Assembly: GCA_037903475.1 (NCBI GenBank)
Contig: JBAJFG010000180.1
Location: forward strand, 558,001 to 622,000
Direction of reading: 5' to 3'
Origin: Ancylostoma caninum
Taxonomy: Eukaryota; Nematoda; Chromadorea; Rhabditida; Ancylostomatidae
DNA length: 64,000 bases
Shown: positions 5,240 through 56,328 of the stretch, piece after piece
Numbering within the stretch: the stretch's first letter is position 1
Layout of the letters: each line of letters begins with the position of its first letter
The notes under the pieces: generated by a model
Databases searched by the model: none
The model's input: the letters and a program-made list of their open reading frames with translations, nothing else
Told to the model about the DNA's origin: nothing
Translations under genes and position numbers: made by a program

Positions 5240-6330
5240 GTAAAAGAGATGTCCTGGCAGGCAAGAAATGTTCCTGATTTTGGCTTTCAACCACCGCGCG
5301 AACAAACCGTATTCGAATCTTCGCCGCTTTGAGACAGCGCGTACACTTTGTGACTCATTTTCAGACAAAATCTCGCAGGTCGCGCGCACCTTTCTGAGGT
5401 CTCCGCGAGAAGCGAGCGCTGCTTCGCTTCGTGTGGAGCAAAAATAAAGAGTACAGTTTCGAAGACGCATTTCAGTTAGGTTGCTCGCTTCACCAGGAGC
5501 AGGATTTCGCTAGGTGCGGAGCGGACGAGGGATGGTTTTCGAAGGACGCAGACGACGAAAGATCGCTCGGCGCGCGCGAGAACACATTTCCAATCAGCAA
5601 CAAATACGAAGCAGCATAAGTAGGATTCCGCTGCTCGATGCTGCCAACAGGTTTGGTTTCTGAAGTTGTGGCATTTTTGCGATGATGGTCACGCACCACC
5701 AGTATGTTTAAATGCTCAACGTTCAAAACTTGACCATCATCCGGTATTGACCGGTTGTAACGTTATCGCTGGGCGCGCGCATCGAGTTCGCTGGGTGCAC
5801 GACCCAATCTCGCTAGTCCTGGGACCTTACCTGCGCGGCCAGCGAGATCGAGATTGTCGCACGCGCTGAGCGAGTGTTTGTCTGGGGAAGTTTTGGAGAA
5901 ACGTGTAAACTTTCATGCAACGCAACCATAACCCAAACAAGCCCCCGCTCAGCAGGCGCGACAATCTCGGTGGCCACGCAGGTAAAGTCCCCGCACCAGC
6001 GAGGTTGTCGCGCGCGTCGAACGATCGAGATCTGTGCGCGCGCCTAGCGAACTCGTTGTGCGCGCCCAGCGATGACATCACAACCGGACAATACCGGTTG
6101 ATGGTGAAGTTTTGAACATTGAGCAACAAGGGTTGACCACAAATATGTATACGGACGGTGCATGACCATCTTTGCAAAAGTGCCCGCTGTGCCTGACATG
6201 ACCTCTCTCTCAATGGGCGCCAGCGGTTGAAGAAGTTGGCCTCGCACCTTCAGAAACCGAATCTGCTGGCCACGCAGACCAGCTCAATCCCGCTGATGCT
6301 GCTTCGTATTCAGGCGTGTGCGGAATTTTC
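5240..6330. mobile_element. Foldback (inverted-repeat) element, family FB1
   Basis: A GC-rich element folding back on itself. The left arm contains CAGCATAAGTAGGATTCCGC, GATGGTCACGC and CTGGGACCTTACCTGCGCGG (about 5600-5870). The right arm repeats these in inverted order (about 5950-6310), for example CCACGCAGGTAAAG, GTGCATGACCATC and GCTGATGCTGCTTCG. The arms are diverged. The same family forms the centre of the large inverted repeat (40866-41389 and 42166-42720) and a fragment at 7311-7632. No coding capacity was seen, so it is non-autonomous; the ends are approximate. Confidence 0.7.
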
Positions 6331-6440
6331 CGTTTTCCGTTTTACGCTTTCCGTTTTCCGCCCATTTCTGGCCTTCCGTTTTATGTTTTACGTTCCACAG
6401 GTTTTTGCCCCTGAAAACGGAAAATTCCGGAAAATTATGG
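6331..6440. repeat. TTTTCCG short-motif array
   Basis: Irregular repeats of TTTTCCG/TTTACG (TTTTCCGTTTTCCGTTTTAC and similar). A second array of the same kind lies at 7315-7375; in both places it abuts an FB1 element. Confidence 0.6.
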
Positions 6441-7310
6441 AAGAATAGGGATCGTTGTTTTCTGCGTACATAAATCTCTATCCTGAAAAGGATTCACGCG
6501 TTTTGATGCGCAATGTACATGAGTTCACAACAATGGCGCCAAAGTTGATGTCCAAACGCTATTTATAAGATTCGAACTATTTTGTTTGACTTTTTTGGCC
6601 TGCATCATTGCTCCAAATATGCCATACAAGTGTCCTGCTCTCTTAAAAATTTCCAAAAAAAAAGTTGCACAGAAATGTGGGGTGAGGGGGTGAGCTGATA
6701 CAAAATTTCCATGAGACTGTGATGTGTCATGATAAATGCATCAAACATTCTTGCGAAGCAACACATGATGTGGGCTTTCTTTCAACCCGACAAAAGCATA
6801 AGGTTTCAATCAAACGATGACCCTCAGCTCCACGCTGGCGCCTGATGGTTTGCGCATTGTTTGGCTTGCTTGTGTTTCACGTTACCCACATACTGCTCTC
6901 CTCCTCCTTCCTCCATTGCTAACTGGCTCTAACGGGATCCTTTGTGAATAACCGGATGCTCCTCAGATTCCAAACGCATTAGCTAACGTAGTTGTCTTCT
7001 TGTCTGATTTTTGGAGAAAAGGTCTGCTCCAAAATAAAGGAAAGGAGTCGCACTTTTTACATTTTACACCTTCTCGTCCACTCAAATATCCAGTGAGGAA
7101 ACCACTTCTTAATCATATAACTCTGATAATCTCTCGTAACTGGATGAAGGATGAATACTTCTTGATCTATCTATATTCTAGGCGTTTGAAGTAAGCACCA
7201 TCAGTAGACTTGAAGTCACTTAATAACTTGAAAGAGTTACCACTCATGCTCATGAAGAAGATATCTAGAGAATCCAATGTTGAAGAGATCTTTTGGTCAA
7301 AGAACTATGC
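6441..7310. other. Unassigned; possible upstream part of the Penelope-like element
   Basis: No recognised domain. The plus frames 7000-7194 and 7210-7310 (SLNNLKELPLMLMKKISRES) could be the 5' part of the reverse transcriptase that resumes at 7633, with the FB1 piece in between, but no diagnostic motif was seen. Confidence 0.25.
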
Positions 7311-7632
7311 TTGGTCAAAATTTTCCGTTTTCCGTTTTTCACCCATTTTTGGCCTTCAGTTTTCCGTTTTACGGGATTTTAGATTTTACTTCCGCACATG
7401 CCTGTTCGTATTCCTCGCCTGTGAAGATGTATTCTCGTGTGCGCTGAGCGGGCGTCTTTCGTCGTCTGCGTCTTTTGAAAATTATCTCTCGTCTGCTCCG
7501 TGGCTAGTGAAGTTCTGCTCCGGCAGAAGCGAGCGACTTCACCGACCTGCATCTCAGAAACGATACTATTTCTTTCTGCTTCGCGCGAAGAGAAGCAGGG
7601 CTAGCTTCATGCGAGCGGCAAAAATCATATCA
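7311..7632. mobile_element. FB1-family fragment
   Basis: Starts with a TTTTCCG array and continues with sequence matching 42500-42680 (GCGTCTTTCGTCGTCTGCGT, GAAGCGAGCGACTTC, TTTCTGCTTCGCGCGAAG). It corresponds to one arm of FB1 and ends where the Penelope-like frame begins. Confidence 0.6.
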
Positions 7633-35640: not shown

Positions 35641-35728
35641 AGACTCCTTTAAAAGAAACAACAGACTCCTTTAAAAGAAACAACAGACTCCTCTAAAAGA
35701 AACAACAGACTTCTCTAAAAGAGACACC
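35641..35728. repeat. 22-bp tandem repeat, four copies
   Basis: AGACTCCTTTAAAAGAAACA plus AC, four units in a row; the last two units carry substitutions. Confidence 0.9.
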
Positions 35729-36259: not shown

Positions 36260-36620
36260 TAGTTTGCATAAGTTTAGATTTCATCTCACTGAAGATACCA
36301 GCTCAATCTGTGCAGATTCCGCAGCACAGAAGTCGTTTGAGTCCTCCGAATTATGGGAATCTGCACATGATCTGCTCCAATCGAACTTCTCAATCTGGAT
36401 CGCCGCTATAGCTCTGCTCAAGCTGCGAGCAGTTCTTTTGCAAGCCTTTTTCGTCTTTCATCGCCTTTATCAACGCATTCCTTTTCTGTGGACCAATGAA
36501 CACCCTAAAGTTTGTTCCGGGGTTCGGCCCCGAACCCCGTACGAAGCCCTTTTTGTATTTCGACCCTTTTACGAAGCCCAGCTTGCCCACCGACAAGCCG
36601 TGTTGGGGCCCGTCTCCCCC
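36260..36620. repeat. Dispersed repeat R1, inverted copy
   Basis: Matches R1 in reverse: TACGAAGCCCAGCTTGCCC, CGTACGAAGCCC and GATCTGCTCCAATCGAACTT are complements of the landmarks in 22885-23130 and 47570-47790. Confidence 0.7.
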
Positions 36621-36904: not shown

Positions 36905-37721
<817 letters not shown>

Positions 37722-37900
37722 GAGTGCGACTGCAATGGTATCGGCCGGCCGATTGGCTTCTTCGATCTATTATTGCACCTTCTTATGTAATGCTTTGATA
37801 CTTATGTGGTGTGATTAACAAACCATATCAATTCTTCGCAGGAGAGAATTTAGGGGTAGAAATCCACCCACTTGTCATGCGCTCACCCTATTTGCTTCTC

Positions 37901-38267
37901 ATTTCCTACATACCAAAGTACGTAGGGGTGCTTTGGAGTATCGTACCCGTGCTTTACCCTGCCTACAATCCCGCGACCAGCAAGACGAGTACATCTGTCT
38001 GTATAACGCATAGTTCATAAATTATGTTGTCGTTATACCATATCAAACACCTTCCCAAGTGCTCCCTGTTTGCATATATGCGCACAACATCGCATGTACA
38101 GGGAGCTAAGTGATAAAAAGTGAAGTGACACATAGCCAGCCAGTAGTCAAAATGAGAGGGAAAGTGAACACTTCCCAGAGTATACTGGTTGTGTTCACCA
38201 ACGTTCACGGATGACTCTACCAGCACTCCGGTTTCCATGTGTCTACCATGGGTCCACTATTACGGCT
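37901..38267. repeat. Dispersed repeat R3, copy 1
   Basis: About 365 bp from ATTTCCTACATACCAAAGTA to GGTCCACTATTACGGCTC. An inverted copy lies at 54605-54964. The right end abuts the large inverted repeat. Confidence 0.8.
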
Positions 38268-41200
38268 CCCGATGTGTTCACCAACGTTCGGAAAGGCCAC
38301 GCCCTCCCTAACTTCCCTATGTGTCATCCAGAAGCCTTTATGGAGTCATCCATGATAGAAGACAACTACAAGATAGACAAGATAGACGAGATAGACACAA
38401 CTAGCACACCCCCAGAATCACTTTGTGAGCCAGATGTGTTACACCGAAGCTTGTGAGGAACTCCAAACTGCCAGGCGGATAAGGATCAGTGCCACAGCGC
38501 GACAGCATTGGGCAGAGAGTATCAAAGAACATCATCAAAGCACTATCGGTGGCACTGGCTCGTACTCACCTGACTGAACCATCGAGCTGCACATACTCAG
38601 ACAGTCATAGCGTGCGATCGGGAACCAGTCATGAAGCTCGCATGCATCAAGTCCATGGCACGCGGGCCACACGCTATGGTTGTCTGAGTACCGCAGCATA
38701 TCTTACAAACAGTAAGATGGGTACGAAAGGGTCACGATGATTGAAGGGAGGGGAGGGGAGGGAGTAGGGAAGATATGGGCTGGGAATTTCAAAAATAGAG
38801 ATATTGAGAATGAATTTTAACTGGAAAGAAGAAAATGGCACTATTCCACATACACGGACCCAAAAAATTCAAAAAAAATTTTGAATCTGAATATTGGCGT
38901 AAGGGCGTTATTTGGGGGCTGAACACGATGCTACGAATACCGTATCCGTTCTTAACCGTAACCCCATTTTCATAAGGCAACGGGGTACTATACTTCAGCG
39001 GCCCCACTATCGACCTTAAACTCAAAACCATGGATTTCTCTGAGAACTTGCTTACAGGGGTAATTCGAAGTGCTGATCACGAATATCATATTCACTTCGC
39101 ATGATATTATCGATTTTATCGATTTTGTCAATTTCTCCCAAGTTCGACTAGTATCGTGAATCGCTCTAAGTGTATGTAGAGGTTTTTGAAGTTGCTGATC
39201 ACGAATGTAATCACCCTTTTGCAATATAACCTCGATTTTGTTGATTTTCTCCAGATTTTTCTCAGTAGCTCGGTATAGTTTCCGACTCTGCTGGAGTTTT
39301 CCCATTGACTAGACTCCTTCTGGCGAAATCTTTATCATATCTGTTTACACCACCTTCGAAAACACCCGTACGAGGGTGGGTTGAAAAGTATCCGGAATGA
39401 CAATGAAAAAAAGCAACTCAGGTCCAGTCCTCAACTTATTTTTTAGCCCCACCCTGTCGAAGCTCAGCACACTTGGAACGATCTGCTTTTAATTCTTTCC
39501 CTGCGAAGGAGTTTGTCGGATTCCTCAAAATAACCTCACACAGCCACGAATAATTGGTCATTCAACCTGAATCTATTTCTATACAGGGAGGCTTTGTGCT
39601 CTGAGAACAGGAGTAAGGAAGCTAGAGGAGTAAGGAAGCTAGTGCTAAAGAATCAATAAATGAGGGAGATTTTTCATTATTTTTACAATTTTTCGTATAG
39701 CAGTGGCATTTCAATGTGTGCTTATACTGTTCCGGAGGGCGCAACGCTTTTTCCTCCTTCTTTCGTGGACATTTTCCGAGAATCGGCATTTCCCCTGTTA
39801 CAAAATATATTTATTCATCATTATTGGCTACTGACGACTTTCCTGACGAGCAACAAAATTCCTCTGAAAAAATTCCTCTCAAAAACAGTTGCTAACACTA
39901 TTCCACAATAGTGAAGGACCCTTCTCTTTTTCGCAACCAATTTATAGCAAAAAAAAAACCACTCTTTTGATAACATTTCTGTAAGCAAAGTGTAGTACTG
40001 AATGTGAGCTTCATTTTCAATCGAAGCTTTGTGCTTCAAATCCTTTCCTTTCCAAACGAACAATTCAAAACTTCTTGCTGTGCTCCATTTCGGTACGTAC
40101 TCTTGCTCGAAATTTAGAAAATGCGGCACACATCCTTCGGAAAAATTTTTTGAAATTGGTTTAGTCTATAGATATAAAATGTTTGCTGATGAAGGACTCT
40201 GAAAGACTCCTTATTTCTGTGCACATTCAGACGCTATCAGCCAAAGCAATATCAAGGAATTTATCCACAATTTCTGATGGGCGATCCTCTTTTGACATCC
40301 TGCACATGGTTCACTGTTTGCTTATGTGCAGCAATGCTTGATTAGCCAAACTCAGAAATTATGTGTGGGGAATCAAACGGAGGAGGCCACAACGTCAGCC
40401 GTGAGAAGTCATTTGGTATGCTTGCAATCTTACCCTTCATTTGGGGAAATTTAATGACCACTCGAATTTCACATTCACCTCTAACTAAGCATAGGCTAAG
40501 TTGCTTGACTTGCAAGATTATTATTAGATGATTGTCCGTAGACGGACTTGCAAGGTCTGTCAAAAGCAGGCTCCTTACCAGATTCAACTGAAATTTGTAG
40601 TCAGTGCACATGGAGGATTTGTCAACACAGCAGTATAGAGATGATGCGAAGATAGCGACTCTTTGGTGGTCATTCCGGAAACTTTCCAACATACCTTCAT
40701 ACGTAAGTATTCAGCGAGATCCGAAAGGAGGTCCACACTTGGGAAAAAACCAAGGAAATAATATCGATACTATCATACGAAATGCTCAGACAATGGAGCG
40801 GGCTGACCGCGGTACCAATATTTGGCCGGACCGTAGCCAACACCGCGGTCAGCCAAATAATTACTCAGACAAACCCTCGCCGGTGGCGCGCATCTGTTCG
40901 AGGTCTCCGGAGCCCTGCTTCGCTTCATGCGAAGCAGAAAGAAGTAGTACAGTTTCACAGACGCAGGTGGATGGAGTCGCTCGCTTCTGCCAGAGCAGAA
41001 TTTCGCTAAGCGCGGAGCAGAAGAGGGGTGGTTTTCGAAGGAAGTAGACGAAGAAAGACGCTTGCTCGGCGCGCGCGAGAACACATCTTCAATCAGCAAC
41101 AAATGCGAAGCAGCATAAGTAGGACTCCGCTGGTCGATGCTGCCAACAGGTTTGGTTTCTGAAGTTGTGGCATTTTTGCGATGATGGTCACGCACCACCA

Positions 41201-41389
41201 GTATGTTTAAATGGTCAACGATTGTCGCTCAACGTTCAGAACTTGACCATCATCCGGTATTGACGGGTTGTAACGTTATCGCTGGGCGTGCGCATTGAGT
41301 TCGCTGGGTGCACGGCCCAATCTCGCTAGTCCCGGGACCTTACCTGCGCGGCCAGCGAGATCGAGATTGTCGCACGCGCTGAGCGAGTG
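38264..41389. repeat. Left arm of the 9.3-kb inverted repeat
   Basis: Runs from GGCTCCCGATGTGTTCACCA to the FB1-type sequence GCACGCGCTGAGCGAG and is mirrored by 42166-47547. Order: a non-coding segment with an internal hairpin (38590-38700), half of FB2 (38988-39370), a mariner-type element (39371-40699), the rest of FB2 to about 40787, a hairpin (GGCTGACCGCGGT / ACCGCGGTCAGCC, 40800-40853), then an FB1 arm. Identity to the right arm, judged from translated stretches, is about 98% up to about 41161 and lower towards the centre. Confidence 0.9.
39371..40699. mobile_element. Mariner-type element (1329 bp), left-arm copy
   Basis: On TA at both sides (39369-39370, 40700-40701). Ends CGAGGGTGGGTTGAAAAGTA and, inverted, TGAAGGTATGTTGGAAAGTT, each leading into TCCGGAATGAC. 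It is inserted in FB2 at a TA; uninterrupted FB2 copies (about 25810, 62390) show the site. Length fits a full-size mariner, but no transposase motif was read in its frames (39821-40129, 40342-40692 minus). Confidence 0.75.
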
Positions 41390-41444
41390 TTTGTCTGGAG
41401 AAGTTTTGGAGAAACGTGTAAACTTTCATGCAACGCAACCATAA

Positions 41445-41746
41445 CTCGACGAGAGTCGACGAGAATGCGAGGATGTTACACAGCCGTACGCACGGGAGGT
41501 CGAATGCAAGGAGCCGCATGCCGGCGTGGAGTGGCATGGAGTGGCGCCGATCGATAGCGACGCGTCGCCGAGTGGACGAGCTTTCGATGCGACGGCTGGA
41601 AGTTTGCTCCAAAAAGAAACCGTTAAAGAAGGGGGTTTTTTGCACTTTTCAGTCGGGATACCTACACCATTGTAATCAGCACCTTCCCTAGATTCTTCTC
41701 ATACCAAATGCTCGGATTCGAACCTGAGCTGGGACACTGCCTTTAA
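41445..41746. mobile_element. Single FB3 arm in the spacer of the inverted repeat
   Basis: Matches the right arm of FB3 (GGAGTGGCATGGAGTGGCGC, CGTTAAAGAAGGGGG, GAACCTGAGCTGGGACACTG) and ends at CTGCCTTTAA. It lacks the nested 462-bp foldback and so shows the empty site of 26164-26625. Confidence 0.8.
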
Positions 41747-42165
41747 TGGGAGCCGTTCCTAGCACCCCTGAAGCATACAACTTCAGAAAGCCACAAGTTT
41801 GGGTAATTCAGTTATTCAGCAGTCTGAAAAATCTACATATTGAAAGTGTTTGTTTGGTCGTTTCAGAAAGCTTTTTATTCGAGTAATCTGTGGGCTTCCG
41901 TAGAAATTTCCTAGTTTTTGACAGTGCATCCACTAGAGTATTCAGATAAGCTTGATTTTCTAAACATTCATGCATCGGTATATCCTAAAAAAACATCAGT
42001 ACCACTAATTTAAAGTTCTTTTCTACGGTAGGATGATTGCTGGATGGACGAGTTGCTATGTCAGGCAGATCCAGGAAACCGCGACGCGAGTCAGTATACC
42101 GGGTGGTAGGAGTGCGCTCAGATGCCGTTTGCCTATAGTGCCACCCGAAGAATCGTGCCATACGA
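41747..42165. other. Spacer between the arms of the inverted repeat
   Basis: Not mirrored elsewhere in the inverted repeat; no gene recognised. The last 130 bp (CGCGACGCGAGTCAGTATAC onward) is GC-rich like FB1. Confidence 0.5.
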
Positions 42166-43058
42166 CCGCCCCTCTCGCTCGGCGCGCGCAATCTCCTAGG
42201 CCACGCAGGTTAGGCTTGGGACTAGCGAGATAGCGCACCTAGCGAACTCGAAGCGCGCGCCCAGCGATGACGTCACAATCGGTCAATAGCGAATGATGGT
42301 CAAGTCATGGACAATGAGCGACAGGGGTTGACTACATAAATGTACGGATGATGCATGACCATCATTACAAAAATGCCCGCTATAACCTCCCCTTCAACGA
42401 GCGTAGGCGGTTGAGGTAGATTGGCTTCGCTTCTCCAGAAACCAAACCTGTTGGCAGCATCGACCAGCGGAGTCCTACTTATGCTGCTTCGCATTTGTTG
42501 CTGATTGAAGATGTGTTCTCGCGCGCACCGAGCAAGCGTCTTTCGTCGTCTACATCCTTCGAAAACCACCCCTCTTCTGCTCCGTGCTTAGCGAAATTCT
42601 GCTCTGGCAGAAGCGAGCGACTCCATCCACCTGCGTCTGTGAAACTGTACTACTTCTTTCTGCTTCGCATGAAGCGAAGCAGGGCTCCGGAGACCTCGAA
42701 CAGATGCGCGCCACCGGCGAGGGTTTGTCTGAGTAATTATTTGGCTGACCGCGGTGTTGGCTACGGTCCGGCCAAATATTGGTACCGCGGTCAGCCCGCT
42801 CCATTGTCTGAGCATTTCGTATGATAGTATCGATATTATTTCCTTGGTTTTTTCCCAAGTGTGGACCTCCTTTCGGATCTCGCTGAATACTTACGTATGA
42901 AGGTATGTTGAAAAGTTTTCGGAATGACCACCAAAGAGTCGCTATCTTCGCATCATCTCTATACTGCTGTGTTGACAAATCCTCCATGTGCACTGACTAC
43001 AAATTTCAGTTGAATCTGGTAAGGAGCCTGCTTTTGACAGACCTTGCAAGTCCGTCTA

Positions 43059-43274
43059 CGGACACTTACCACCCGCACGCATCGCGTCAGGCCGTTTTGC
43101 GTTTTTGGACCGGGGAAGAAACGGCCAAACATGCTTCAAAAGGTGCCCTCACTCACATCAACATCTTAGTAGGCATATTAGGTCAACCTGTCCTTCCTAG
43201 GAAAAGTCTGGGAGCAGCCACTCTCTGTAGACTTGTCTCGCCGGGGCCTGACGCGCATGGGTGGTAACTGTCCG
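43059..43274. mobile_element. Small TIR element (216 bp)
   Basis: Inverted ends CGGACACTTACCACCC and, mirrored, CGGACAGTTACCACCC, with GCGTCAGGCC inside both. The left arm has only CGGACA plus about 11 bp at the same place (around 40530-40540), as if the element had been lost there. Confidence 0.7.
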
Positions 43275-43854
43275 ATAATCTTGCAAGTCAAGCAACTTAG
43301 CCTATGCTTAGTTAGAGGTGAATGTGAAATTCGAGTGGTCATTAAATTTCCCCAAATGAAGGGTAAGATTGCAAGCATACCAAATGACTTCTCACGGCTG
43401 ACGTTGTGGCCTCCTCCGTTTGATTCCAAACCCATAATTTCTGAGTTTGGCTAATCAAGCATTGCTGCACATAAGCAAACAGTGAACCATGTGCAGGATG
43501 TCAAAAAAGGATAGCCCATCAGAGATTGTGGATAAATTCCTTGATATTGCTTTGGCTGATAGCGTCTGAATGTGCACAGAAATAAGGAGTCTTTCAGAGT
43601 CCTTCATCAGCAAACATTTTATATCTATAGACTAAACCAATTTCAAAAAATTTTTCCGAAGGATGTGTGCCGCATTTTCTAAATTTCGAGCAAGAGTACG
43701 TACCGAAATGGAGCACAGCAAGAAGTTTTGAATTGTTCGTTTGGAAAGGAAAGGATTTGAAGCACAAAGCTTCGATTGAAAATGAAGCTCACATTCAGTA
43801 TTACACTTTGTTTACAGAAATGTTATCAAAAGAGTGGTTTTTTTTGCTATAAAT

Positions 43855-44464
43855 AGTTGCTTGATGTTAAAACTGGCTCATCAAATCGGTCCAATTGTAT
43901 GGTTTTTATACATGAACTGCATTTAACGCTCATGCACTTGGCGCAACTGAAGAACATTTCGTGCGTAGGTTGATTGATTCACTGATTTTGTCAATTTAAT
44001 TCCAAGGGTTTGTTGTGCTCACGCCTTCATCCATGTCCAGTATGCAAGACATCTTTCCAGATTCGTGATCAGCGTGATAGAAAACCATCGCAAGTTTGCT
44101 TGCATCACGCTCGGAGAAATACTCACGAAAATTCAACAAAGTCGATAAATCAATATGCAAAATAGTCGTCAGATTCGTGATCATCGTGGTGAAAAACCCC
44201 AGCATGCCCATTTCGACCCGGATTGGAGCTAAATTGAGAAAGATCGACAAAACCGATCAATAAATCGATATCCGGATCGGTACTATCCGGTGAACAGTGT
44301 TCTAAGCCATCCGCCCTATTCGGATGGTGTCCCATGTTTCCGAGCCCCCTTCTTCGCCACCTTGCTTACAGATGCTTTCCTAACGTTTGAATTTGGCGCC
44401 CACGCGCGCCTTCCAGATTTTTGAAAAAAAAAGCGTCGTAAGAGTTTCTATGTTTTATATATAG
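43855..44464. mobile_element. 610-bp insertion absent from the left arm
   Basis: Lies between GCTATAAAT and ATTGGTT, which are contiguous in the left arm (complement near 39936-39950). Possible short flank duplication ATAAAT/ATAGAT. The interior has inverted GATTCGTGATCA motifs and GATCGACAAAACCGATC; class unknown. Confidence 0.65.
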
Positions 44465-44593
44465 ATTGGTTCCGAAAAGAAGAAGGGTCCTTCATTATTG
44501 TGGAATAGTGTTAGCAACTGTTTTTGAGAGGAATTTTTTCAGAGGAATTTTGTTGCTCGTCAGAAAAGTCGTCACTAGCCAATAATGGTGAAT

Positions 44594-45906
44594 TGTCCGT
44601 GGATTGTCGCGGTCACGTTAAATAAAGTTGTGGCACTTTCCCAAAACAGTTGCATTCGTTGCGATTCATTGCTTTTTTGCAATACAATGCGTCATGGTTG
44701 GTGTCATTGCATTTTTTTTCAATGCATTGCATAAAATGCAATGCATTAAATTAAATGCATTGACAAAAATTGCAATGCACTGCAACGAATGCATTGCAAT
44801 GTTTTGGTTTAATTACCCAAGTTTGAGGTACTCAAATGCATTGCGTCGTATCTGTTGCGGGGAAAAAATGCAGAGAAATATTTTTTGATAAATTATATTA
44901 AATCCAATGCTTTAAATGAAATGTATTAAATGAATTGCATTAAATGCAATGCATTGACAAGAATTCACCGCATTGAGAAAAATTGCAATGCGTTGCAATG
45001 CATTGCATGTTTTGGTTTAATTACCCAAGTTTGAGGTACTGCCAAGCGTTGCCTCATACCTAAAGCGGTGAAAAAAATGCGCCGGATTATTCAAACAAGT
45101 CGGTGCATGAAACTAAATGCATTAAATGCAAAGCGTTGCACTTATTGCAATCTATTGCATTTTTTCAACAATGCGTTGTATATTTTTTAATGCATTTGTT
45201 TTCCATCGGTTCTCCCACCCAAGTGTGGGGTCGTCTCAACCGATGCTGACTACACTAGGCTGCTATTAGACTCCATGCGAGGTATAGCTGTGCTATACCT
45301 CGGGTGGAGTCTAATAGCAGCCTAATGCAGTCAGCATGCTGTGGCTTCCGCGGCTACGCTTCGCCCACAATCGATAGGTATTGCTAGTGGCGACGGCGAC
45401 ATTCTGTGCTATACCTCGCGTGGAGTCTAATAGCAGCCTAATGCAGTCAGCATCGGTTGAGACGACCCCATAGTTGGGTGGGAGAACCAATGGAAAATAA
45501 ATGCATTGAAAAATATACAACGCATTGTTGAAAAAATGCAATAGATTGCAATAAGTGCAACGTTTTGCATTTAGTGTACTTAGTTTTATGCACTGACTTC
45601 TTTGAATAATACGGTCTATTTTTTCCAATGCTTTAGATACGACGCAACGCTTGGCAGTACCTCACACTTGGGTAATTGAACCGAAATAGATGCAATGTTT
45701 TCACTGCAATGCATTGCAATTTTTGTCAATGCATTTAATTTAATGCATTGCATTCAATGCATTGCATTTTATGCAATGCATTGAAAAAAAAATGCAATGA
45801 CACCAATTATAATGCACTGCAAAAAAAGCAATGAATTGCAACAAGTGCAACTGTTTTGGAAGAATGCAACAACTTTATTTAACGTGACCGCGACAATCCA
45901 CGGACA
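44594..45906. mobile_element. Foldback element built of TGCATT repeats (1313 bp)
   Basis: Ends TGTCCGTGGATTGTCGCGGT and its inverse, flanked by the 6-bp direct repeat GTGAAT (44588-44593, 45907-45912). The left arm keeps the single site as ATGAAT. Each arm is dominated by degenerate AATGCA/TGCATT hexamers. The centre (45231-45480) holds a second hairpin: GGCTGCTATTAGACTCCA and CGAGGTATAG against their complements, then a further direct copy. Confidence 0.85.
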
Positions 45907-46334
45907 GTGAATATCTTTTGTAACAGGGGAAATGCCGATTCTCGGAAAATGCCCACGAAAGGAGGAAAAAGCGTTGTGCCCTCCGGTACAGTACAAGCAC
46001 ACATTGAAATGCCACTGCTTAGCGAAAAATTGTAAAAATAATGAAAAATCTCCCTCATTTATTGATTCTTTAGCACTAGCTTCCTTACTCCTGTTCTCAG
46101 AGCACAAAGCCTCCCTGTACAGAAATAGATTCAGGTTGAATGACCAATTATTCGTGGCTGTGTGAGGTTATTTTGAGGAATCCGACAAACTCCTTCGCAG
46201 GGAAAGAATTAAAAGCAGAACAGAGATGTTCCAAGTGTGCTGAGCTTCGACAGGGTGGGGCTAAAAAATAAGTTGAGGACTGGACCTGAGTTGCTTTTTT
46301 TCATTGTCATTCCGGATACTTTTCAACCCAACCC

Positions 46335-46540
46335 ACCCTCGTACGGGTGTTTTTGAAAGTGGTGTAAACAGATATGATAAAGATTTCGCCAGAAGGAGTC
46401 TAGTTAATGGGGAAACTCTAGCAGAGTCGGAAACTACACCCTCGTACGGGTGTTTTTGAAAGTGGTGTAAACAGATATGATAAAGATTTCGCCAGAAGGA
46501 GTCTAGTTAATGGGGAAACTCTAGCAGAGTCGGAAACTAC
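46335..46540. repeat. 103-bp tandem duplication in the right arm
   Basis: Two identical units (46335-46437, 46438-46540) starting ACCCTCGTACGGGTG. Each unit spans the last 7 bp of the mariner-type element and about 96 bp of FB2. Absent from the left arm. Confidence 0.95.
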
Positions 46541-47552
46541 ACCGAGCTACTGAGAAAAATCTGGAGAAAATCAACAAAATCGAGGTTATATTGCAAAAGG
46601 GTGATTACATTCGTGATCAGCAACTTCAAAAATCTCTACATACACTTCAGAGCGATTCACGATACTAGTCGAACTTGGGAAAAATTGACAAAATCGATAA
46701 AATCGATAATATCATGCGAAATGAATATGATATTCGTGATCAGCACTTCGAATTACCCCTGTAAGCAAGTTCTCAGAGAAATCCATGGTTTTGAGTTTAA
46801 GGTCGATAGTGGGGCCGCTGAAGTATAGTACCCCGTTACCTTATGAAAATGGGGTTACGGTTAAGAACGGATACGGTATTCGTAGCATCGTGTTCAGCGC
46901 CCCAAATAACGCCCTTACGCCAATATTCAGATTCAAAACATTTTTTTTGAAGTTCTTGGGTCCGTATGTGGAACTGTGCCATTTTTCTTCTTTCCAGTTA
47001 AAATTCATTCTCCCACTATCTCTATTTTTGAAATCCCGAGCCCATATCTTCCCTACTCCCTCCCCTCCCCTCTCTTCAATCATCGTGACCCTTTCGTACC
47101 CGTCTTACTGTTTGTAAGATATGCTGCGGTACTCAGACAACCATAGCGTGTGGCCCGCGTGCCATGGACTTGATGCATGCGAGCTTCATGACTGGTTCCC
47201 GATCGCACGCTATGACTGTCTGAGTATGTGCAGCTCGATGGTTCAGTCAGGTGAGTACGAGCCAGTGCCACCGATAGTGATTTGATGATGTTCTTTGATA
47301 CTCTCTGCCCAATGCTGTCGCGCTGCGGCACTGATCCTTATCCGCCTGACAGTTTGGAGTTCCTCACAAGCTTCGGTGTAACACATCTGGCTTACAAAGT
47401 GAATCTGGGAGTGTGCTAGTTGTGTCTATCTTGTCTATCTTGTAGTTGTCTTCTATCATGGATGACTCCATAAAGACTTCTGGATGACACACAGGGAAGT
47501 CAGGGAGGGCGTGGCCTTTCCGAACGTTGGTGAACACATCGGGAGCCATAAC

Positions 47553-48440
47553 AGGTCCCAGCACGGCTGTTCTGGGGGCAAGCTGGGCTTCGTGAAAAGG
47601 TCGAAAATCAAAGAGGACTTCGTACAGAGTCCGGGGCAAAGCCCATAAAAACTGGGTTTTTTGCTGGTCCCAAGAAGGACAATACGTTGATACGGCAATA
47701 CGTAGAAAAGGTTGTGAGAAAACGGCTCTTAGTACTTTGATCGGCGCAATAAAGGCGATCGAGGACGAAAAAGTTCGATTGGAGCAGATCATTTACAGGT
47801 TCCCACTCTCTGGAGGGTAGGAAGGACTGCTGTGCTGACGAAGCTGCACGGATCGACTTGAAACCTTCGGTGAAATAAGAACAAAGGGAATACTGGAAGT
47901 TCTTTGAAAAGACATTTTAAATTTATGCAAAGCAAAAAAGCTGTGCTAGGTAACTAAGTCCACACTTCACGGATTCACTTCAAATTTTGGGAAAAGATGT
48001 GTCTCAGAGCGCACAATAGGTGTTTGAAATGGTTCCCCGAACCTATGTGAATCAAAAAATTGTATGCTCACTAAGTGGTCCAGCCTTTCGTGCGAAAGGC
48101 TGGACCCGCAGCCACGAAAGGCTCAGCCTTTCGTGGGACTTCAGGAGCATAATTTTTCTATTCAAACACATAATTTTCTGCTGCCTTTGCATACACCTAT
48201 ACATCTAATTCAATGCTATCATACGCACTCTAGTATGTTCTATATCATCTCCTTTTAATAGAGATATAGCCCTACAAAGCTGAACTTTTTATACCCTACG
48301 ATGCGCCAACGTACGAATGAAACGCGTAGGTTTCATTTGCGACGCCGCTCTTCATTCAAATCAGCGTCATGTCCAAGTTTCGTTTTTGTTTCGAAAATGT
48401 TCTTATTTTTGCGTTTTCGCTTTTTCGATGTCGTTGATTA
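47553..48440. repeat. Dispersed repeat R1, copy 2
   Basis: Starts right after the inverted repeat and matches 22885-23740 along its length. Contains two adjacent hairpins: GTCCAGCCTTTCGTGCGAAA (closing with GGCTGGAC) at about 48079-48106 and CCACGAAAGGCTCAGCCTTT (closing with CGTGG) at about 48111-48135. Confidence 0.75.
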
Positions 48441-48499
48441 TTTTAGCTTCTCTCCCTTCAGGGGCTTGCTAATCTTGGAAATACTTGTTTTTTTTTCAA

Positions 48500-48842
48500 T
48501 AGTGTCATGCAATGTATGGTGAATGTTTCCACGTTTTTTCATGTTTGCTTGAAACCATGAAAGTAGTAGCTGAGCTGAGATGAATACTTTTCATCTCAGC
48601 TACCATTTTCATTGCTTCAGAAGAGTCACATCCTTGACCAGCTGTCACCCAGGCCGTCAATGAGCACAGTCGCCGGCGATGGCGACGCAGGGTGGTGTAC
48701 TCCTCGAGGAGCATGGTAGCTACCTTCTCAAGCCAGTTTTTCGGTTTTTAAGGATTATCAGCCTGATTGCGAAATGCTCAGGCCTCTTTTAGGCTCTCTT
48801 CGCTCGCCTTGAGTCTGTGGGATATGTTCCTCACATTTAGAG
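48500..48842. repeat. Dispersed repeat R2, left part (split by LINE copy 2)
   Basis: Contains the GCGACGCAGGGTGG ... CTCCTCGAGGAG module also seen at 4620-4865, and CAGCCTGATTGC ... GGGATATGTTCCTCACATT corresponding to 24118-24200. The rest of R2 resumes at 54326. Confidence 0.65.
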
Positions 48843-49213
48843 CCTGCGCGCGTCCCGAGCGGTCGGCAGATCACCCCCTCCAGCGCCACTACCTACTATT
48901 TCCGCTAAGGCTCCTTATTTCTATATTTTCTGTCTGCTTAGTCGGCTAAACGACTGGTGGCTACTCTGCGAGCACCAGGGTGGCACGGTGCGATCTTCTA
49001 CTGAGTACTGCCACCAATTCAGGTCGGTTTTTGAAGTTTCCATCCGTCGAGGTCTTGGTGCCGCGGGTCGTCATTTATCGATCCTCTTGACTGTATTGTG
49101 ACCTGCACCCACCTACGTTCACCACGCATAGTTTCCTGTGGCAGGGAAGCTGATCAGTTATCGTTTCTGCCACTCTACTAGGTGTATTGACTACTGATAG
49201 TGTCGTTTTGATT

Positions 49214-50041
49214 ATGTCTACCCCACTGGCTGCTTCAACCATTCAGAACCGCAAGAAGGGCCAGAAGAGACAACGCGTCGATTTTCCAAGTCCGATGAGC
49301 ACAAGGTCTGATCTGGACGAGCAAATCGATCAAGTTTTGAAGGACGATTCTCTTCCTAATCATCTTAGAACAGTAATAGCGTGCCTACTTGAAGATAGGA
49401 AGCAATTCCAGGTTTTGGCAAGTCTTTGCAGAGAATTGCCGGAAGTCAGAAGTCTTAGGTCTGAAAACGCTATTCTCAAAAGTCAGCAGTCTAGTTCCAA
49501 CAACAATCCTCCAATTCCACCTCTATCCTCTCCTCAACAGTCTAATCCTGTTGTGTCCTGTATGTCTTCCGTTGGTAGTGAGTCGTTCGAGAAAATCGAA
49601 CGAAAGCGTTCTGTAATTATTGCAGGAATTGTTGAAAGTAAGGCTACTCTTGCATCTAATCGAGTAGTGCACGACTGCAATTGCGTGAGGGAAATCATGG
49701 ATTTCCTAAACGTTGACTGTGCTACCGTTTCTGCGTATCGTTTAGGTCGTTATAGCGTCAGCCACCCTCGATTGATTAGTGTTGTACTTCCTGCTTCTTT
49801 TTTCGCGAGGCAGTTAGTGCGGCGTGCCCCCCGCTTAAAGCATTTTAAGGTCTCTGGCCTTTTTGTCCGTCCTTCTCTTCCTAAGGAAGAGAGGGACAGG
49901 CTACGTGCCGAGCGTGAGGCACGACGCAATAACCAGATCGTGGCCAGCCAACCATCTCACTCTCAATCTTCTCCACAGTCATTGCAGAACTCTGTCGTTT
50001 GCATCAATGCTGCAGATCTCGTAGCGATTCTGAGCCTGTGA
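49214..50041 (+). CDS. LINE ORF1 protein (copy 2), intact
   Basis: 275 codons from ATG 49214 (MSTPLAASTIQNRKKGQKRQ) to TGA. A basic N-terminus, an acidic segment, then SVIIAGIVESKATL and LNVDCATVSAYRLGR (RRM-like nucleic-acid-binding middle) and RPSLPKEERDRLRAEREARR, the basic C-terminal block of LINE ORF1 proteins. Expected to coat the element RNA. No stop or shift, unlike ORF2. A TTG at 49187 extends the frame, but ATG 49214 is the likely start. Confidence 0.75.
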   Translation: MSTPLAASTIQNRKKGQKRQRVDFPSPMSTRSDLDEQIDQVLKDDSLPNHLRTVIACLLEDRKQFQVLASLCRELPEVRSLRSENAILKSQQSSSNNNPPIPPLSSPQQSNPVVSCMSSVGSESFEKIERKRSVIIAGIVESKATLASNRVVHDCNCVREIMDFLNVDCATVSAYRLGRYSVSHPRLISVVLPASFFARQLVRRAPRLKHFKVSGLFVRPSLPKEERDRLRAEREARRNNQIVASQPSHSQSSPQSLQNSVVCINAADLVAILSL

Positions 50042-50361
50042 ACATGTCAAACTAGGATACCGTCGTCGGATTTTAGGAACGAAGCTTTCATTTTTACTCA
50101 TTAATACTCGATCACTATTGAAAAATAGGAACTTTCTTGTACTTCTGCTCAATCAGCACCAATATGACATTGTGGCCATTACTAAAACATGGCTCGACGA
50201 TTCTACTGATCTACCTTCGATTCTAGGAGCAGTATCACCACGTCATGACTCTTTTCAATGCGATAGGAAGGATAAAAGGAGCGGTGGCGTAGCGTTCTCA
50301 ATTCGTAAGGCACTTTTACCCAGCTTGGTCTTCAGCGAATCAGTTCCGAATTCTTATGAAA

Positions 50362-50704
50362 CCGAGCCAGAGCGCCGCGAAGCGGCGCTCTGACTCGGAC
50401 CCGTGTGCCACGTTACCACGGCTCTGATTGCGAAATCACACTCGCTTCATCAGTGGTTCTCCCATTCTGTTTTAAATATCCAAGATATTCCGTTTTCGTT
50501 GCAAATTAGATGTCCTAATTGAAGATTTCCATGTTGTACACATACATATACATGGGCGTGTCATTGGGCGTGTCAATTTTCGCAATTGAGCCCGTGGCGG
50601 CGGGCAAAAGAGGTGGGGCGAGGCGAGTGGATCAATGACAGCGTGACCTGTCATCCCTCGCGCGGCGATGGGGGGGGGTGGTCTGCGCTTTATATAGAGT
50701 AAGA
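50362..50704. mobile_element. 343-bp insert in LINE endonuclease, with terminal hairpin
   Basis: Interrupts the codons GAA ATA TTG: the frame NSYE continues as ILFFDF when it is removed. The left end is a 17-bp stem with one mismatch (CCGAGCCAGAGCGCCGC, loop GAA, then its complement). There is no target duplication; the insert sits between A and T. That is the Helitron insertion rule, but the 3' CTRR signature is not convincing. Confidence 0.7.
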
Positions 50705-51830
50705 TATTGTTCTTTGATTTCCTTTTTGGTCATAAACCAGTCCGATTGGTCGTGCTTTATAAAACGCCATCTTGCATTGTGAGTATGGGTGAACAAATGT
50801 TGAAAGCCTTAGGTGATTTGATATCCTGCCATCAAAAATGCGTAATATGTGGCGACTTTAATATGCCTGACATCAAATGGGATGCATTACAGCCGTTTGC
50901 AACTAACTCTGTATCCAAATATTTGGGGGAACTTTGCAAGTCTTATGGCTTGACACAACATGTCAGTGGTGGCACACTAAGGAAGAACACTCTTGATTTA
51001 GTCTTGTCTAGTGATAAGCGGCTAATAGAGGAACTGAAAATCGATGCCCCTGTCGGTATCAGCGATCACTGTTCTATTAATTTCCAACTGAATCTTTCTA
51101 TTACTACGGATCCCTACGTCATTAAACGTGACTTCAAGGCAGCCGACTTCGCTGACATCAGAAACTACTTATACGATCTTGACTGGCGTGGGTCGCCTGA
51201 TACAGTCAGTAGCGTTGATGGAAAATATGAACTCTTCATAGCGGTTTTACACCACTGTATCGATATCTCTTCGTCCCACTTGTCAAAGCTCCTCTAAACT
51301 CATCCAAGGTGCCCCCTCACAATAGTTCACTAGCCCACAGACGGTTACTGGCTTGGAATGCAGCGGTTGCGGAAGGAACTAGCGACAACTGGGCAAGATT
51401 TTCGAGACTTTATAGGTTGCTTCAAAGAAAACTGTGGAAGTACAATGCCAATCTTGAAAAGAAGGTTATTCGATCTAAAAACAAAAACGCTTTTTACAAG
51501 CTAGTCAATTCTAGAATTCGGTGAAGCCCAAAATTGAGGCCTTGGTAAAAGATGATGGTAAAATTGCACTCACTGAGCATGATAAGGCCGAAATGCTATC
51601 GGACGTTTTTGCGCGATCCTTCACTATTTCTGGCTCAACGCTAAATGTCTCTAGCGGTCCAGCTTTTCCAAGAAGGAGCGATTCTCTGTGGTTTCACAGC
51701 GACGAGGTTTTCAGTACACTCTCTGCGTGGCCTACTTCTTACTCGGATACACCTGATCACATCCCGCTAATATTTACCAAGCAAGTACTGGACATAATCA
51801 CTGGGCCACTTGTGTACATTTTCAACTTAA

Positions 51831-52807
51831 CACATAACGGACAATACGACCCACCGGTGGGTCGTACGGGAAGTTACGTAGAGGACAATACGACCCACCG
51901 GTGGGTCGTATCCGTTTTATCCCTTTTTCTTAGGTGGAGCTTCCCCAAATTCTGGCCCTAGAGGTTATTCTACCCGCTGAACACGGAAATGGTATCCATT
52001 TTGTACCGTAACTGCGATACTGTAGGATTACTGTAGTCATACTGTAGATGCTGTTGATACATTATCTCACAGCATCTGCAACAAATTTGAACTTTGGGGT
52101 TACATGACGTGCTGAACATAAATACGCCATCAGTCCTGCACCGTAGAGCAGTATTCTAAGGCTACTGTAGCGTTATCGTATGATTACTGTAGGCATACTG
52201 TAGATACATTTTATTCACCAAATTCAGTGAAACTTTGGCAAGTGAGGTTATTTGACATGCTGAGTACGAAACTGACATTCATTTCGTACCGTAGCGCAGT
52301 ACAGTAGGGTTACTGTAGACATGCTGTAGATTCATTTTATTCACCAAATCCAGTGAAACTTTGGCAGGTGGGGGTTTCTGACATGCTGAACACGAATTTA
52401 AGATCCATATTCGAAATAGGTGTCATATTCGAGTTCAGAGTGTAAAATAGCCCCAGTTTCGGGCAAATTCTGATGAAAAACTTTTCCCACAGTTCTTACA
52501 GTATGATTACAGTAACCCTGCAGTGAGGCGATACGGTAGACAATGGATTTCATATTCTTAATCTGTATGTGAAATAACCCTTCTGTGCAAATTTTGGTTG
52601 AATTCTGATAGAAAAAGGTCCTTCTACAGTTTCTACAGTATATATACAGTAAACTACAGAAGTGCTTTACCAAGTAAAATAGATGGCATAATTGTGATCA
52701 GCATGTCAAATATGCCCTAATTCTCGCAAATCCCGGTAAGAAACAAGCGCAAACTCGCTTTGGTCCAAAATGGCCCTGAGCGGAAAATCTGCGTTGTCGC
52801 GAATGTG
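51831..52807. mobile_element. piggyBac-like non-autonomous element (977 bp) in LINE ORF2
   Basis: Flanked by TTAA (51827-51830, 52808-52811). Ends CACATAACGGACAA and, inverted, CACATTCGCGACAACG, related to 30703-31143. Near the left end the perfect 22-bp palindrome with centre ACCCACCGGTGGGT occurs twice (51839-51866 and 51883-51910). Removing the element and one TTAA joins FNLS to LMCAEVPSRWK in frame, the expected LINE wording. No transposase. Confidence 0.9.
51975..52640. repeat. Degenerate minisatellite inside the piggyBac-like element
   Basis: About four to five units of roughly 125-145 bp starting near 51977, 52112, 52257 and 52382. Each begins GCTGARYAC and includes TACTGTAGACATACTGTAGA-like blocks and CACCAAATTCAGTGAAACTT. 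The motif TACTGTAG also appears inverted in the last units (CTACAGTA). Confidence 0.7.
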
Positions 52808-54325
52808 TTAAGCCTTATGTGTGCAGAAGTGCCAAGTAGATGGAAACTCTCTCTTGTGACCCCTCTACCCAAGAAACCTCCGTTCACATCCCCACTGAAC
52901 TGTCGCCCAATCAGTATTACGTCGATTTTTGCCAGAGCATTTGAAAAGATTCTCAAGAAAAGAATTGAAAAACATCTACAAGAACACTCTTTTATATCTC
53001 CTTTTCAACATGGCTTTCAAAAAGGCAAATCTACGGTAACCGCTATGCTTCAGTCCTTGAATGACTGGACATTCAATGCTGATCATAGGCATGATACCGA
53101 CGTTGTTTTTCTTGACTTTTGCAAGGCTTTCGATAAAATTCCCCATGATAAACTACTCGCTAAATTAGATAGAATTGGAATTCACCCCAGGATTATTGGA
53201 TGGATTCAGGCGTTTCTCTCTGATCGTATTTTCACTGTAAGAGTAGGATCTGGTTTCTCTCGGCCGAGACGGGTCACAAGTGGGGTCCCACAGGGGGAGT
53301 CCTCTCTCCTATTCTTTTCAACATTTATACGTACGAACTTCCCCTTCTCGTTTCAACAGTCGGTGTGAACTGCTGTGCTTTTGCCGATGACTTCAAGATC
53401 TATAGTAAAAGTTCAGATTGGTTAGCACTCCAAAATGCAATCGATATTGTGCATAACTGGTCTAAGGAATGGGAGATCCCGCTCTCAGAAGAAAAGACTA
53501 AGCTGACGCATACTGGACCCAAGAATAATTGTCAAAGTGGTTGACAAAATTAAAGACTTGGGTTTTTTGATAACAAGCGACCTAAACTTTGACCAACACT
53601 GCGAGCAAATCGCTGCGAAGGCCATGGGTTAATGTACAAATTATTCAGAGCATTGGTGACAAAGGACTGTATGATTCTTTTACGTGCATTCAAAACCTAC
53701 ATAAGACCATTACTTGAATACGGGACCGTTATCTTTTGTCCACACAAACGGAAGGTTAGTGATAAGCTTGAAAAGGTCCAGAATAGTTTCACAAGGAAAC
53801 TCTTTATAAGAAAAGTCGGGTTCTTTTATGATAGGATTCCCTCCTTTGAGGAGAGGAATATGAATCTTGGCCTACATTCTCTTTCCTGGAGAAGAAAATT
53901 CGATCTACTCATGTTCCATAAAATCATTCACGGTCACAGTGGTCTTGATCCTGAGAACTACTTCTCGTTTAGACCTTCCATAACCAGAGGTGGCTCACGG
54001 AAGCTCTGCCTTCCTAGAGCCAGACTCAAATGTCGATCAAATTTTTTCATCAATAGAGCAGGTTCCGATTATCTAGCATTGAGCAGAGTGCAAGCAATTT
54101 CCTTCTAGTTTACGATCCTTCAAAAACACGTTGCGCAACTATCTGAAATCTTGATGGTATCCTAGGCTTTGTTGCCGATCTGTTTAGTTTTTCTATAAGC
54201 CCATTATTTGTTTCACTTGATCTGATTTTACCAATTGATAGCCAGGTCTTTTTTTCCATTTTTGTTACTTCCTGTTTTTTTTTGCATGGGACGCCTCACG
54301 TAATAAATAATAATAAATAATAATA

Positions 54326-54604
54326 GACGCCGCCGCACCACTCTTGCAGCTGTGAATCAGTCTAGTGACATTTTCCCCATTACTGTCAGCAATAGATGCG
54401 TGCAATTAGGGCGCAACTGACCCATGCACTTAGTATAAACTGCTGTTTGCGGGATCGCGGCTCTTTTTGGGCGGACGTCCGTGAAAAACGGTTATTTTGG
54501 AAATTTCCCAGTGTCTCAGTATCCAAGGACTTCGTAAAATTTGTGTTTTTCAAAACGGGCTTCGTTTTTGTTCCGACCCTACGAAAAGCTCTTGCTGAGA
54601 CCTG
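54326..54604. repeat. Dispersed repeat R2, right part
   Basis: Resumes with GACGCCGCCGCACCACTCTT and continues like 24222-24470 (GTGACATTTTCCCCATTACT, ACGGGCTTCGTTTTTGTTCC). See 48500-48842. Confidence 0.75.
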
Positions 54605-54964
54605 AGCCATAATAGTGGACCCATGGTAGACACATGGAAACCGGAGTGCTGGTAGAGTCATCCGTGAACATTGTTGAACAAAACCAGTATACTCTGGAAA
54701 GTGTTCACTTTCTCTCTCATTTTGACCACCGGCTGGCTATGTGTCGTTTTATCAATTAGTTCCCTGTACATGCGATGTTGTACGCATATATGCAAACAGT
54801 GAGCACTTGGGAAGGTGTTTGATATGGTATAACGACAACATAATTTATGAACTATGCGTTATACAGACAGATGTACTCGTCTTGCTGGTCGCGGGATTGT
54901 AGGCAGGGTAAAGCACGGGTACGATAGTCCAAAGCACCCCTACGTACTTTGGTATGTAGGAAAT
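54605..54964. repeat. Dispersed repeat R3, inverted copy
   Basis: Complement of 37901-38267 over its whole length (GTGGACCCATGGTAGACACA, CTTGCTGGTCGCGGGATTGT, CTACGTACTTTGGTATGTAG). Confidence 0.85.
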
Positions 54965-56328
54965 GTTGTGTCCCCGCCTGTCTCCGGGAACACAAACCTT
55001 TTCCACTCCAAGAGTCTCCTCCTTCGACTCTCACTCCTTCTACCCTCTCTTACTCACGAGGGTTAACTTGTGACTACTGCTGTAGTACACCAGTCAGAAT
55101 ATTAGATTTATTAGTAAATAATAAGGGAGCTGGGGGCGACTGCGGCTGCTAAGGCTGACTCCAATCATGCACAGCTAAGGCTCAATCCTAGGGCCTTATA
55201 TACACCTCTGTTTCCCGCCATCGCACTTCCTTGCGATCTATCCGGACGGGAGATCTCCACGCCACCTAGGAAGATCATCGGTCTGTAGACAAGCCTATTC
55301 GTAGTTATCCTTTTCTTGCAGATTTTGTCTATCCGTTTCGATGTAGATTCATTTTTGTTACTAGTTGTATTGAGTTTGTTTTCTCCTATGTTGAAGTGCT
55401 TTCTTTTTGATCTTTGCCTCGATCTATCTGGATCTCTAGTGGCGGGAACGCGCCCTATAAAAGGACGCCTACAATACCTCAGTGGCCTTCTCGTGATCTG
55501 CCTATTAGTTTTTTTCCTTCCCATTGCTTTCGGTTTTACTCCCAATAAAATTTTGTGTGTTCGTTTTGTAGCCTCTGAACCAACTGGTGAACACCAGTTG
55601 CATACCTTTCTTCTATTATCTCCTAGATTAGCTTCACTTGGGGGCCGAACCAAAGGTTCAGAGGTCCCATCAGGTGCACCAGCGGTCACGTGATATTACG
55701 AACACAGCAGGGAAGTGCGCCAGTGGCAGTAGGGGTGACCGAAACAGCGCGCCTGAGGCCGCTAGCGAGGCAGTATTGGGGAATCGATCAGTTGTGGGTC
55801 CTGCACCGCAATTGATCGATTTGAACTACCGGCGCACAAACTCACGTGATATCGACCGTGAGGGGAGTCGGCACCACAGTCCGCCCCGTACGCAACTAAG
55901 GGTGCGCTAGTAGCCACCACACTAAGGCATAGGAGGACTAATCAATCGATTTCGATATCGATTGACGGAATTGATCGACACTATAGAGTGCGCGCCAAAG
56001 GCCGCAGTCTTGTGAAGTTCTTGAGGAGTTGGTATAAAGGCTATAGTGTCGATCGCTGTAGAGACGGAATGGAATACGTGGTGGACCGAATACCAACCAC
56101 AGTTCCGGAAGAAATGAAAAAAAACGGAATGAAGGATGCTTCCAAATGAAATGATTTGCTCTAGAATGATGCGCATTGATAATCGGTACTAAAAAATAAT
56201 GTGCTGAAGCTGTTAGCACATTACTGCACCACAACGATACTATATACAGCACGAAAACACCAATACCACTCGGTCTCATTCACAGCATTCGTCGAGCCCT
56301 AATCACCAACTAATCAATCGCATATCAA
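54965..56328. other. Unassigned; promoter-like or LTR-like patch
   Basis: Opposing frames at 55165-55689 (minus) and 55316-55693 (plus) have no domain. A TATA box followed about 90 bp later by AATAAA recalls an LTR, but clear LTR ends, primer-binding site and retroviral-type proteins were not found. ATCGATTTCGATATCGAT near 55943 is palindromic. Confidence 0.3.
55456..55549 (+). promoter_or_regulatory. TATA box and poly(A) signal pair (possible solo LTR)
   Basis: CGCCCTATAAAAGGACG (TATAAAA at 55456-55462) and CCCAATAAAATTTTG (AATAAA at 55544-55549). The spacing suits an LTR U3-R unit; alternatively a chance pair. Confidence 0.25.

Follow-up and report, generated by a model that had tools for sequence, protein, structure and literature searches.

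An interstitial inverted duplication in the Ancylostoma caninum genome that probably arose by fold-back synthesis at a foldback-type repeat

How do two near-identical arms of DNA come to face one another across a single-copy spacer? In the human fold-back inverted duplications covered by the cited portion of PMC3907307, the spacers measure 766–70,466 bp, inverted microhomology of 2–8 bp is found at 13 junctions, and opposed long or short interspersed nuclear elements (LINEs or SINEs) occur at 3 of 21 junctions. In yeast, hairpin-primed extension has been proposed to generate foldback inversions (PMC7467729, in part), and inverted repeats as diverged as 75% identity are still active, far more so in single-stranded DNA (PMC10164571, in part). 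Mobile elements can also be built of inverted-repeat DNA; according to the cited portion of PMC3169594, the Tm1 Mutator/Foldback elements of root-knot nematodes have defined ends and 8–10-bp target duplications in 45 of 53 instances. Here we analyze a long inverted repeat in 64,000 nucleotides of the nematode Ancylostoma caninum, bases 558001–622000 of contig JBAJFG010000180.1 (C212), hereafter the window, in an assembly of 348 Mb and 638 contigs. We consider it likely that this structure is a single interstitial inverted duplication, formed by fold-back (inverted template-switch) synthesis seeded by the dispersed repeat FB1 and later interrupted by transposons, among them a LINE-containing insertion that we call element X. 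It looks like an accident of DNA repair or replication rather than a giant mobile element. Such rearrangements are of a known kind; this one is unusually well resolved and probably genuine.

As in the human cases, in the portion of that report cited here, the locus has a single-copy spacer with microhomology or opposed repeats at its edge, and the spacer length of 1,268 bp is within the published range (PMC3907307). Unlike those duplications, which are large and lie beside a terminal deletion or translocation, this one is 3.3 kb long and interstitial, and its seed is a foldback-type repeat with 79–82% identity, compared with 90% in one human Alu case described in detail (PMC3907307). As in the portions of the yeast studies used here, reverse copying of the adjoining DNA is proposed to start from a hairpin or an annealed inverted repeat; the yeast products, however, were selected rearrangements and almost always were followed by secondary homology-mediated events or were dicentric, while here the rejoining was local (PMC7467729, PMC10164571). 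The resemblance to Tm1, as far as the cited portion describes it, is that both are inverted-repeat DNA in a nematode and that the inserted element X likewise has a 9-bp target duplication, but the giant inverted repeat itself has neither defined ends nor a target duplication that we could see (PMC3169594). In the literature within our scope, outside of which most subscription papers fell, we found no account of foldback elements seeding fold-back duplications in nematodes.

Extent of the inverted repeat

The first-pass annotation had described a 9.3-kb inverted repeat at 38264..47547 with arms about 98% identical. A long inverted repeat is present, far above chance (homologous blocks in Table 1), and the identity estimate was borne out: over six collinear blocks of the mirrored arms, 3,136 of 3,209 aligned bases agree (97.7%), with 73 mismatches, 22 indels and a Kimura two-parameter distance of 0.023, the outermost block extending 3–4 bases too far. 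Both ends, however, had been misplaced. The pair 38264/47547 is not the limit of the arms, because element X is inserted there and the mirror resumes beyond it: bases 54604–54965 mirror 37900–38268, so that the right arm continues past element X. The 9-bp target duplication of element X, GAGCCATAA, stands at 47543–47551 and 54604–54612 and has no other occurrence in the window on either strand; together with the second flank copy at 54604–54965 it also rules out 38257/47554, which we had entertained as the outer end. Similarly, repeat E, intact in the left arm, is divided in the right arm into 47363–47551 and 54604–54735, and each of the 10 other loci retrieved (L011–L020) matches it in one unbroken alignment at that position.

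Element X starts with CAGGTCCCAGC, ends with GCTGAGACCT and contains EEP and RT domains. Elsewhere in the window one match begins at its first base (at 63111) and another stops at its last (at 24470). Its family is represented at 47552–54603, 22886–24470, 63111–63185 and 36283–36610, with GGCTTCGT-like motifs near both ends.

FB1, the lineage switch and the proposed direction of copying

The inner ends, previously placed at 41389/42166, also move. The recent arms stop at 41164/42433, where identity drops sharply from 98.9% (625/632) outside to 79–82% inside, and what lies inward is an older FB1 inverted repeat, 41165–41387 against 42174–42432, identical at 168 of 204 positions in one alignment and at 163 of 207 in another (625/632 versus 168/204, Fisher p about 5e-17). 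FB1, which had been listed among the contents of the arms, does exist as a dispersed repeat. Its native inverted repeat, however, is confined to the diverged inner part, whereas the outer part is near-identical between the arms as a result of the duplication. The spacer between the recent arms occurs once at this locus, although its portion 41454–41746 is a dispersed repeat, one arm of another foldback family of which many copies among the matches listed are inverted pairs about 1 kb apart.

The window contains a second FB1 copy, FB1b, whose halves have diverged to 75–77% identity outside the boundary and 68% inside it. The left inner half of the palindrome matches FB1b-left (within 5361–5932) at 260/267 positions in one alignment and 215/222 in another, and a segment of about 57 bp (about 42380–42432) is common to the right half and FB1b-right and absent from both left halves. 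Identity to FB1b-left is 65/68 outside and 215/222 inside the boundary for the left arm, and 64/68 outside and 155/193 inside for the right arm. Of the sites that distinguish the two FB1b halves, 16 lie outside the boundary, and at 15 of these the left and right arms alike have the FB1b-left state; among the 49 inside, the left arm carries it at 48, while the right arm has the left-half state at 27, the right-half state at 15 and neither at 7. Finally, we compared variants specific to FB1b-left with a family majority made up of FB1b-right and 18 genomic copies (20 fetched loci minus the self locus and the FB1b locus, FB1b entering from the window sequence). Outside the boundary each arm has these variants at 7 of 9 sites; inside it the right arm has them at 2 of 18 (p = 0.0012 for the right-arm contrast) and the left arm at 16 of 18. 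From its FB1b-left identity and variant patterns, the right arm thus passes at the boundary from its own FB1 lineage to that of the left arm, while the left arm keeps its lineage throughout; the change in the right arm is placed by these patterns within GGTTTCTG, 42436–42443. An initial, coarser comparison had pointed to the right arm as the source, and this was reversed by the finer-window, site-pattern and family tests.

The outer junction at 37900/54965 was examined in a similar way. Position 37900 falls within a dispersed repeat that continues through the left junction and is broken at the right junction. Throughout, genome searches were scored for their best 40 candidates, so that family counts are lower bounds; the boundary search (best 40 of 104 candidates) returned 41 rows, comprising the query, the right arm, 22 matches to the boundary repeat and 17 to another piece of the left flank. 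Eleven of the 22 begin in the left flank, 6–66 bases beyond the boundary, and the left flank aligns with the family copy L050 with a score of 17, against a best of 12 in 300 shuffles and a score of 2 for the right flank. From these 11 matches and this one clear alignment, which are the basis of the outer test, it is the left junction that looks native and the right junction that looks broken, in agreement with the inner junction. Both junctions point the same way, and suggest that the right arm was copied from the left. An almost pure (AC)n microsatellite of 813 bp (about 407 units, 36906–37718) ends 181 bp to the left of the outer edge.

We propose an ancestral locus in which the left-arm DNA was succeeded by an FB1 element whose inverted halves were already old and diverged. 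A break or stalled fork would have initiated the event, and a 3′ end lying within the right half of FB1 would have paired, by way of a single-strand intermediate, with the left half. Synthesis would then have switched template to the left half within the 8 nt of GGTTTCTG and run outward as far as about 37900, through FB1, the mariner-type element, the FB2-like repeat and repeat E. Joining of the copied end to the right flank, at 54966, would have completed the event, and what remained of the right FB1 half was probably lost. What can be read from the bases themselves is that the arms are mirrored around an older seed repeat, that the right arm changes FB1 lineage, that a repeat runs on through the left outer junction, and that single arms carry insertions with target duplications. 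The anatomy fits fold-back synthesis because it combines inverted homology, a single-copy spacer, short homology at the switch and reverse copying outward: near-identical inverted arms flank the spacer, inverted homology was already present at its edge (FB1 halves 163/207, with diverged halves in FB1b as well), and one arm is native at both junctions where the other is chimeric or broken. A replication-fork switch and the fold-back of a broken end predict identical sequence. An intermolecular version between sister molecules may also apply, since inverted repeats spaced 1 kb apart near a break in yeast anneal mostly between molecules, as stated in the cited portion of PMC6103520.

Weighing the explanations

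Several observations count against fold-back synthesis from the left arm. At the outer junction, 5 of the 22 boundary-repeat matches begin 2 bases beyond the boundary and another 6 begin within it, and the family copy L053 scores 4 with each flank, where shuffles reach 12. At the inner junction, FB1b is the single other FB1 copy of the L lineage that was found (among the best 40 of 574 candidates, dominated by another repeat), and its match to the arms fades to 79–86% beyond about 41050, so that about 65 bp supply the L-lineage signal outside the boundary. Among the window matches to the right of the junction, the remainder of the right FB1 half is missing, and a deletion has to be assumed. 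Divergence is 43/1,463 in the outer half and 30/1,746 in the inner half (p = 0.024, the outer count taking in 3–4 bases past the arm end), which is unexpected from a single copying event alone. In the cited portion of the yeast work, going from identical to 75%-identical repeats (12-bp spacer) lowers induced rearrangement about 1,087-fold in wild-type cells, and lengthening the spacer to 1.5 kb lowers it 31-fold; in single-stranded DNA the loss from 75% identity is 23-fold and there is none from a 1.5-kb spacer (PMC10164571). Likewise, the human and yeast products described in the cited portions are mostly terminal, translocated or dicentric, and this duplication is interstitial.

The divergence gradient, slightly lower toward the center (p = 0.024), is what gives some weight to an older inverted duplication whose arms were later homogenized by arm-to-arm gene conversion, with a tract ending at 41164/42433; a conversion tract would also leave a chimeric right FB1 half. 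We think this unlikely, since the arms would still require an earlier inverted duplication and since the arm-specific insertions and a loss in the left arm escaped homogenization. These differences also bear on whether the arms are real. Three insertions of the right arm, element X, the 1.3-kb palindromic transposon (termini TGTCCGTGG / CCACGGACA) and the 605-bp insertion, have clean or probable target duplications (Table 1). Within the left-arm mariner, both target-duplication copies and one end of a small element are retained and its body is lost; its target duplication, ACTTGCAAGAT/ACTTGCAAGGT, is kept in both arms and absent from 5 of 5 aligned mariner copies, from which it follows that the small element predates the duplication. 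The insertions and the left-arm loss argue for real arms, and a sequencing artefact from a single molecule would hardly produce such arm-specific differences. They would be explained equally well, together with the 2.3% divergence, if the assembler had reversed at the FB1 repeat onto the other haplotype, the arms being two alleles that differ by ordinary heterozygosity and by polymorphic transposons. Another palindrome in the assembly, on contig C342 (L056), does have essentially identical outer arms that reach the contig end, as such an error would. Here, however, the roughly 183 kb of contig to the right of the junction should carry an allele of the left flank, and none was found: in a search of the left flank (best 40 of 2,504 candidates), in which a true allele should rank at the top, 32000–35422 matched only itself, one place on contig C54 (698 bp at 70%, plus 229 bp at 68% on the other strand) and short self-inverted pieces, with no allelic copy. 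The final 178 bases of that query are high-copy repeat. Similarly, the 19 kb to the right of the junction show no collinear inverted match to the 48 kb of left flank, only five short inverted matches, the best of 160 bp at 92.5% within the high-copy repeat. In addition, we reason that an 8-nt match in a repeat of 79–82% identity is too short and too diverged for a false read overlap. An assembly error therefore seems to us improbable. The high-copy repeat at 35423–35645, in the left flank, is about 90–93% identical at many places and has an inverted copy 29 kb further right.

The first-pass annotation had offered two origins, a giant composite transposable unit or a rearrangement product. Long inverted arms are what would be seen if this were a giant transposon, composite or foldback, whose terminal inverted repeats measured 3 kb, and nematodes do have foldback and Mutator-like families, as the cited portion of PMC3169594 documents. 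Its end structure and copy number nevertheless led us to reject such an element, and we regard it as very improbable: the outer boundary lies within another repeat, inspection of the aligned flanks by eye shows no target duplication at 37900/54965, and, among the candidates scored, the arm segments tested occur at high identity only in the two arms. Neither 38466–38750 (best 40 of 148 candidates) nor 37969–38118 (best 40 of 104) matches anything besides the two arms, and a third copy of the mariner segment above 81% was not found (best 40 of 160). Thus, among the candidates scored, only the two arms share the outer ends at high identity. A terminal inverted repeat at the 37900 boundary was also discarded, because L048, L049, L051 and L055, which start at that boundary, share a short deletion there and L050 and L053 run through. 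Of the two origins offered, the rearrangement product is the supported one.

Contents of the arms, other palindromes and wider meaning

The mariner-type element predicted in the arms was found there, at 39371–40707. Related mariner copies are single and have no mirror in 6 of 6 other fetched loci (L003–L008, about 1.5 kb of flank per side), and one further copy, on contig C457, sits inside another palindrome. Four reading frames of the arms had no Pfam match above the curated cut-off, and neither the Rfam scan nor the tRNA scan of the window gave a hit. The window also holds two LINE-type retroelements; seven of the eight top-scoring proteins for a LINE endonuclease frame come from Ancylostoma, Cooperia and Ostertagia, at 36–47% identity. 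These three genera are strongylid nematodes, and from such matches a rhabditid source would be likely.

Table 1. Features of the inverted repeat and its surroundings (window coordinates).
Feature	Coordinates	Strand	Remarks
Left arm, inferred source, 3.27 kb	37900..41164	+	97.7% identical to reverse complement of right arm
Right arm, inferred copy, split by later insertions	42433..54965	-	From alignment with left arm
Spacer between near-identical arms, 1,268 bp	41165..42432	.	Proposed fold-back loop and annealed stem
Homologous block	38257-39378 / 47554-46437	inverted	
Homologous block	39272-39811 / 46440-45910	inverted	
Homologous block	39813-39946 / 44593-44460	inverted	
Homologous block	39940-40521 / 43854-43275	inverted	
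Homologous block	40533-41387 / 43064-42174	inverted	
Left half of older FB1 inverted repeat, proposed seed	41165..41387	+	About 97% to FB1b-left
Right half of older FB1 inverted repeat	42174..42432	-	
Proposed switch point GGTTTCTG	42436..42443	-	Common to left arm, right arm and FB1b-right
Second FB1 copy, FB1b	5361..7608		35 kb from palindrome; left inner part about 97% identical to that of palindrome
One 293-bp arm of another high-copy foldback family, in spacer	41454..41746	.	
Element X, 7.05 kb, in right arm	47552..54603	+	Exact 9-bp target duplication; LINE coding fragments inside
Dispersed repeat E, about 320 bp, intact in left arm	38137..38457	+	
Repeat, probably FB2 of the first-pass annotation	38984..39366	+	78.5% to part of self-inverted element 62007-62590
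Mariner-type element, left arm, mirrored in right arm	39371..40707	+	
Small inverted-repeat element within right-arm mariner	43065..43274	.	
605-bp insertion, right arm only	43855..44459	.	Probable TYTATA duplication, one mismatch
1.3-kb palindromic transposon, right arm only	44594..45906	.	6-bp duplication GTGAAT at 44588-44593 and 45907-45912
103-bp tandem duplication, right arm only	46334..46543	.	
Two LINE-type retroelements	10872-13730 and 49154-54108		Endonuclease and reverse-transcriptase domains over several reading frames

Two other palindromes came to light as inverted pairs among the search matches, a small and biased sample that gives no estimate of frequency. The C457 palindrome (L021:819-6597) is 5.8 kb long and near-perfect, with arms of about 2.9 kb that have five substitutions outside the center and a loop of about 50 bp within the mariner copy. 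The C342 palindrome (L056:1216-6805), whose two arms are L048 and L049, has an inner repeat of about 1 kb at about 88–93% and an outer arm of 1.8 kb with 2 mismatches (1,798/1,800). Both could be products of assembly, and that on C342 could be an assembly turn-round. A more tentative proposal, which we presently doubt, is that foldback-type transposons are recurrent seeds of local snap-back duplication in this genome, and that large palindromes keep arising and are then both broken and stabilized by new transposon insertions.

The locus records, base by base, a probable fold-back duplication in the genome of an animal, and its sequence allows the seed, the switch point, the direction of copying and the outer junction all to be proposed. 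The later insertions argue that the duplication was inherited, and their presence in one arm suggests how large palindromes may survive. If foldback transposons do so routinely as seeds, they would give rise to palindromes and inverted duplications, which repeat annotation could mistake for giant transposons. We speculate, finally, that a long inverted repeat of this kind could yield double-stranded RNA directed against its component transposons.

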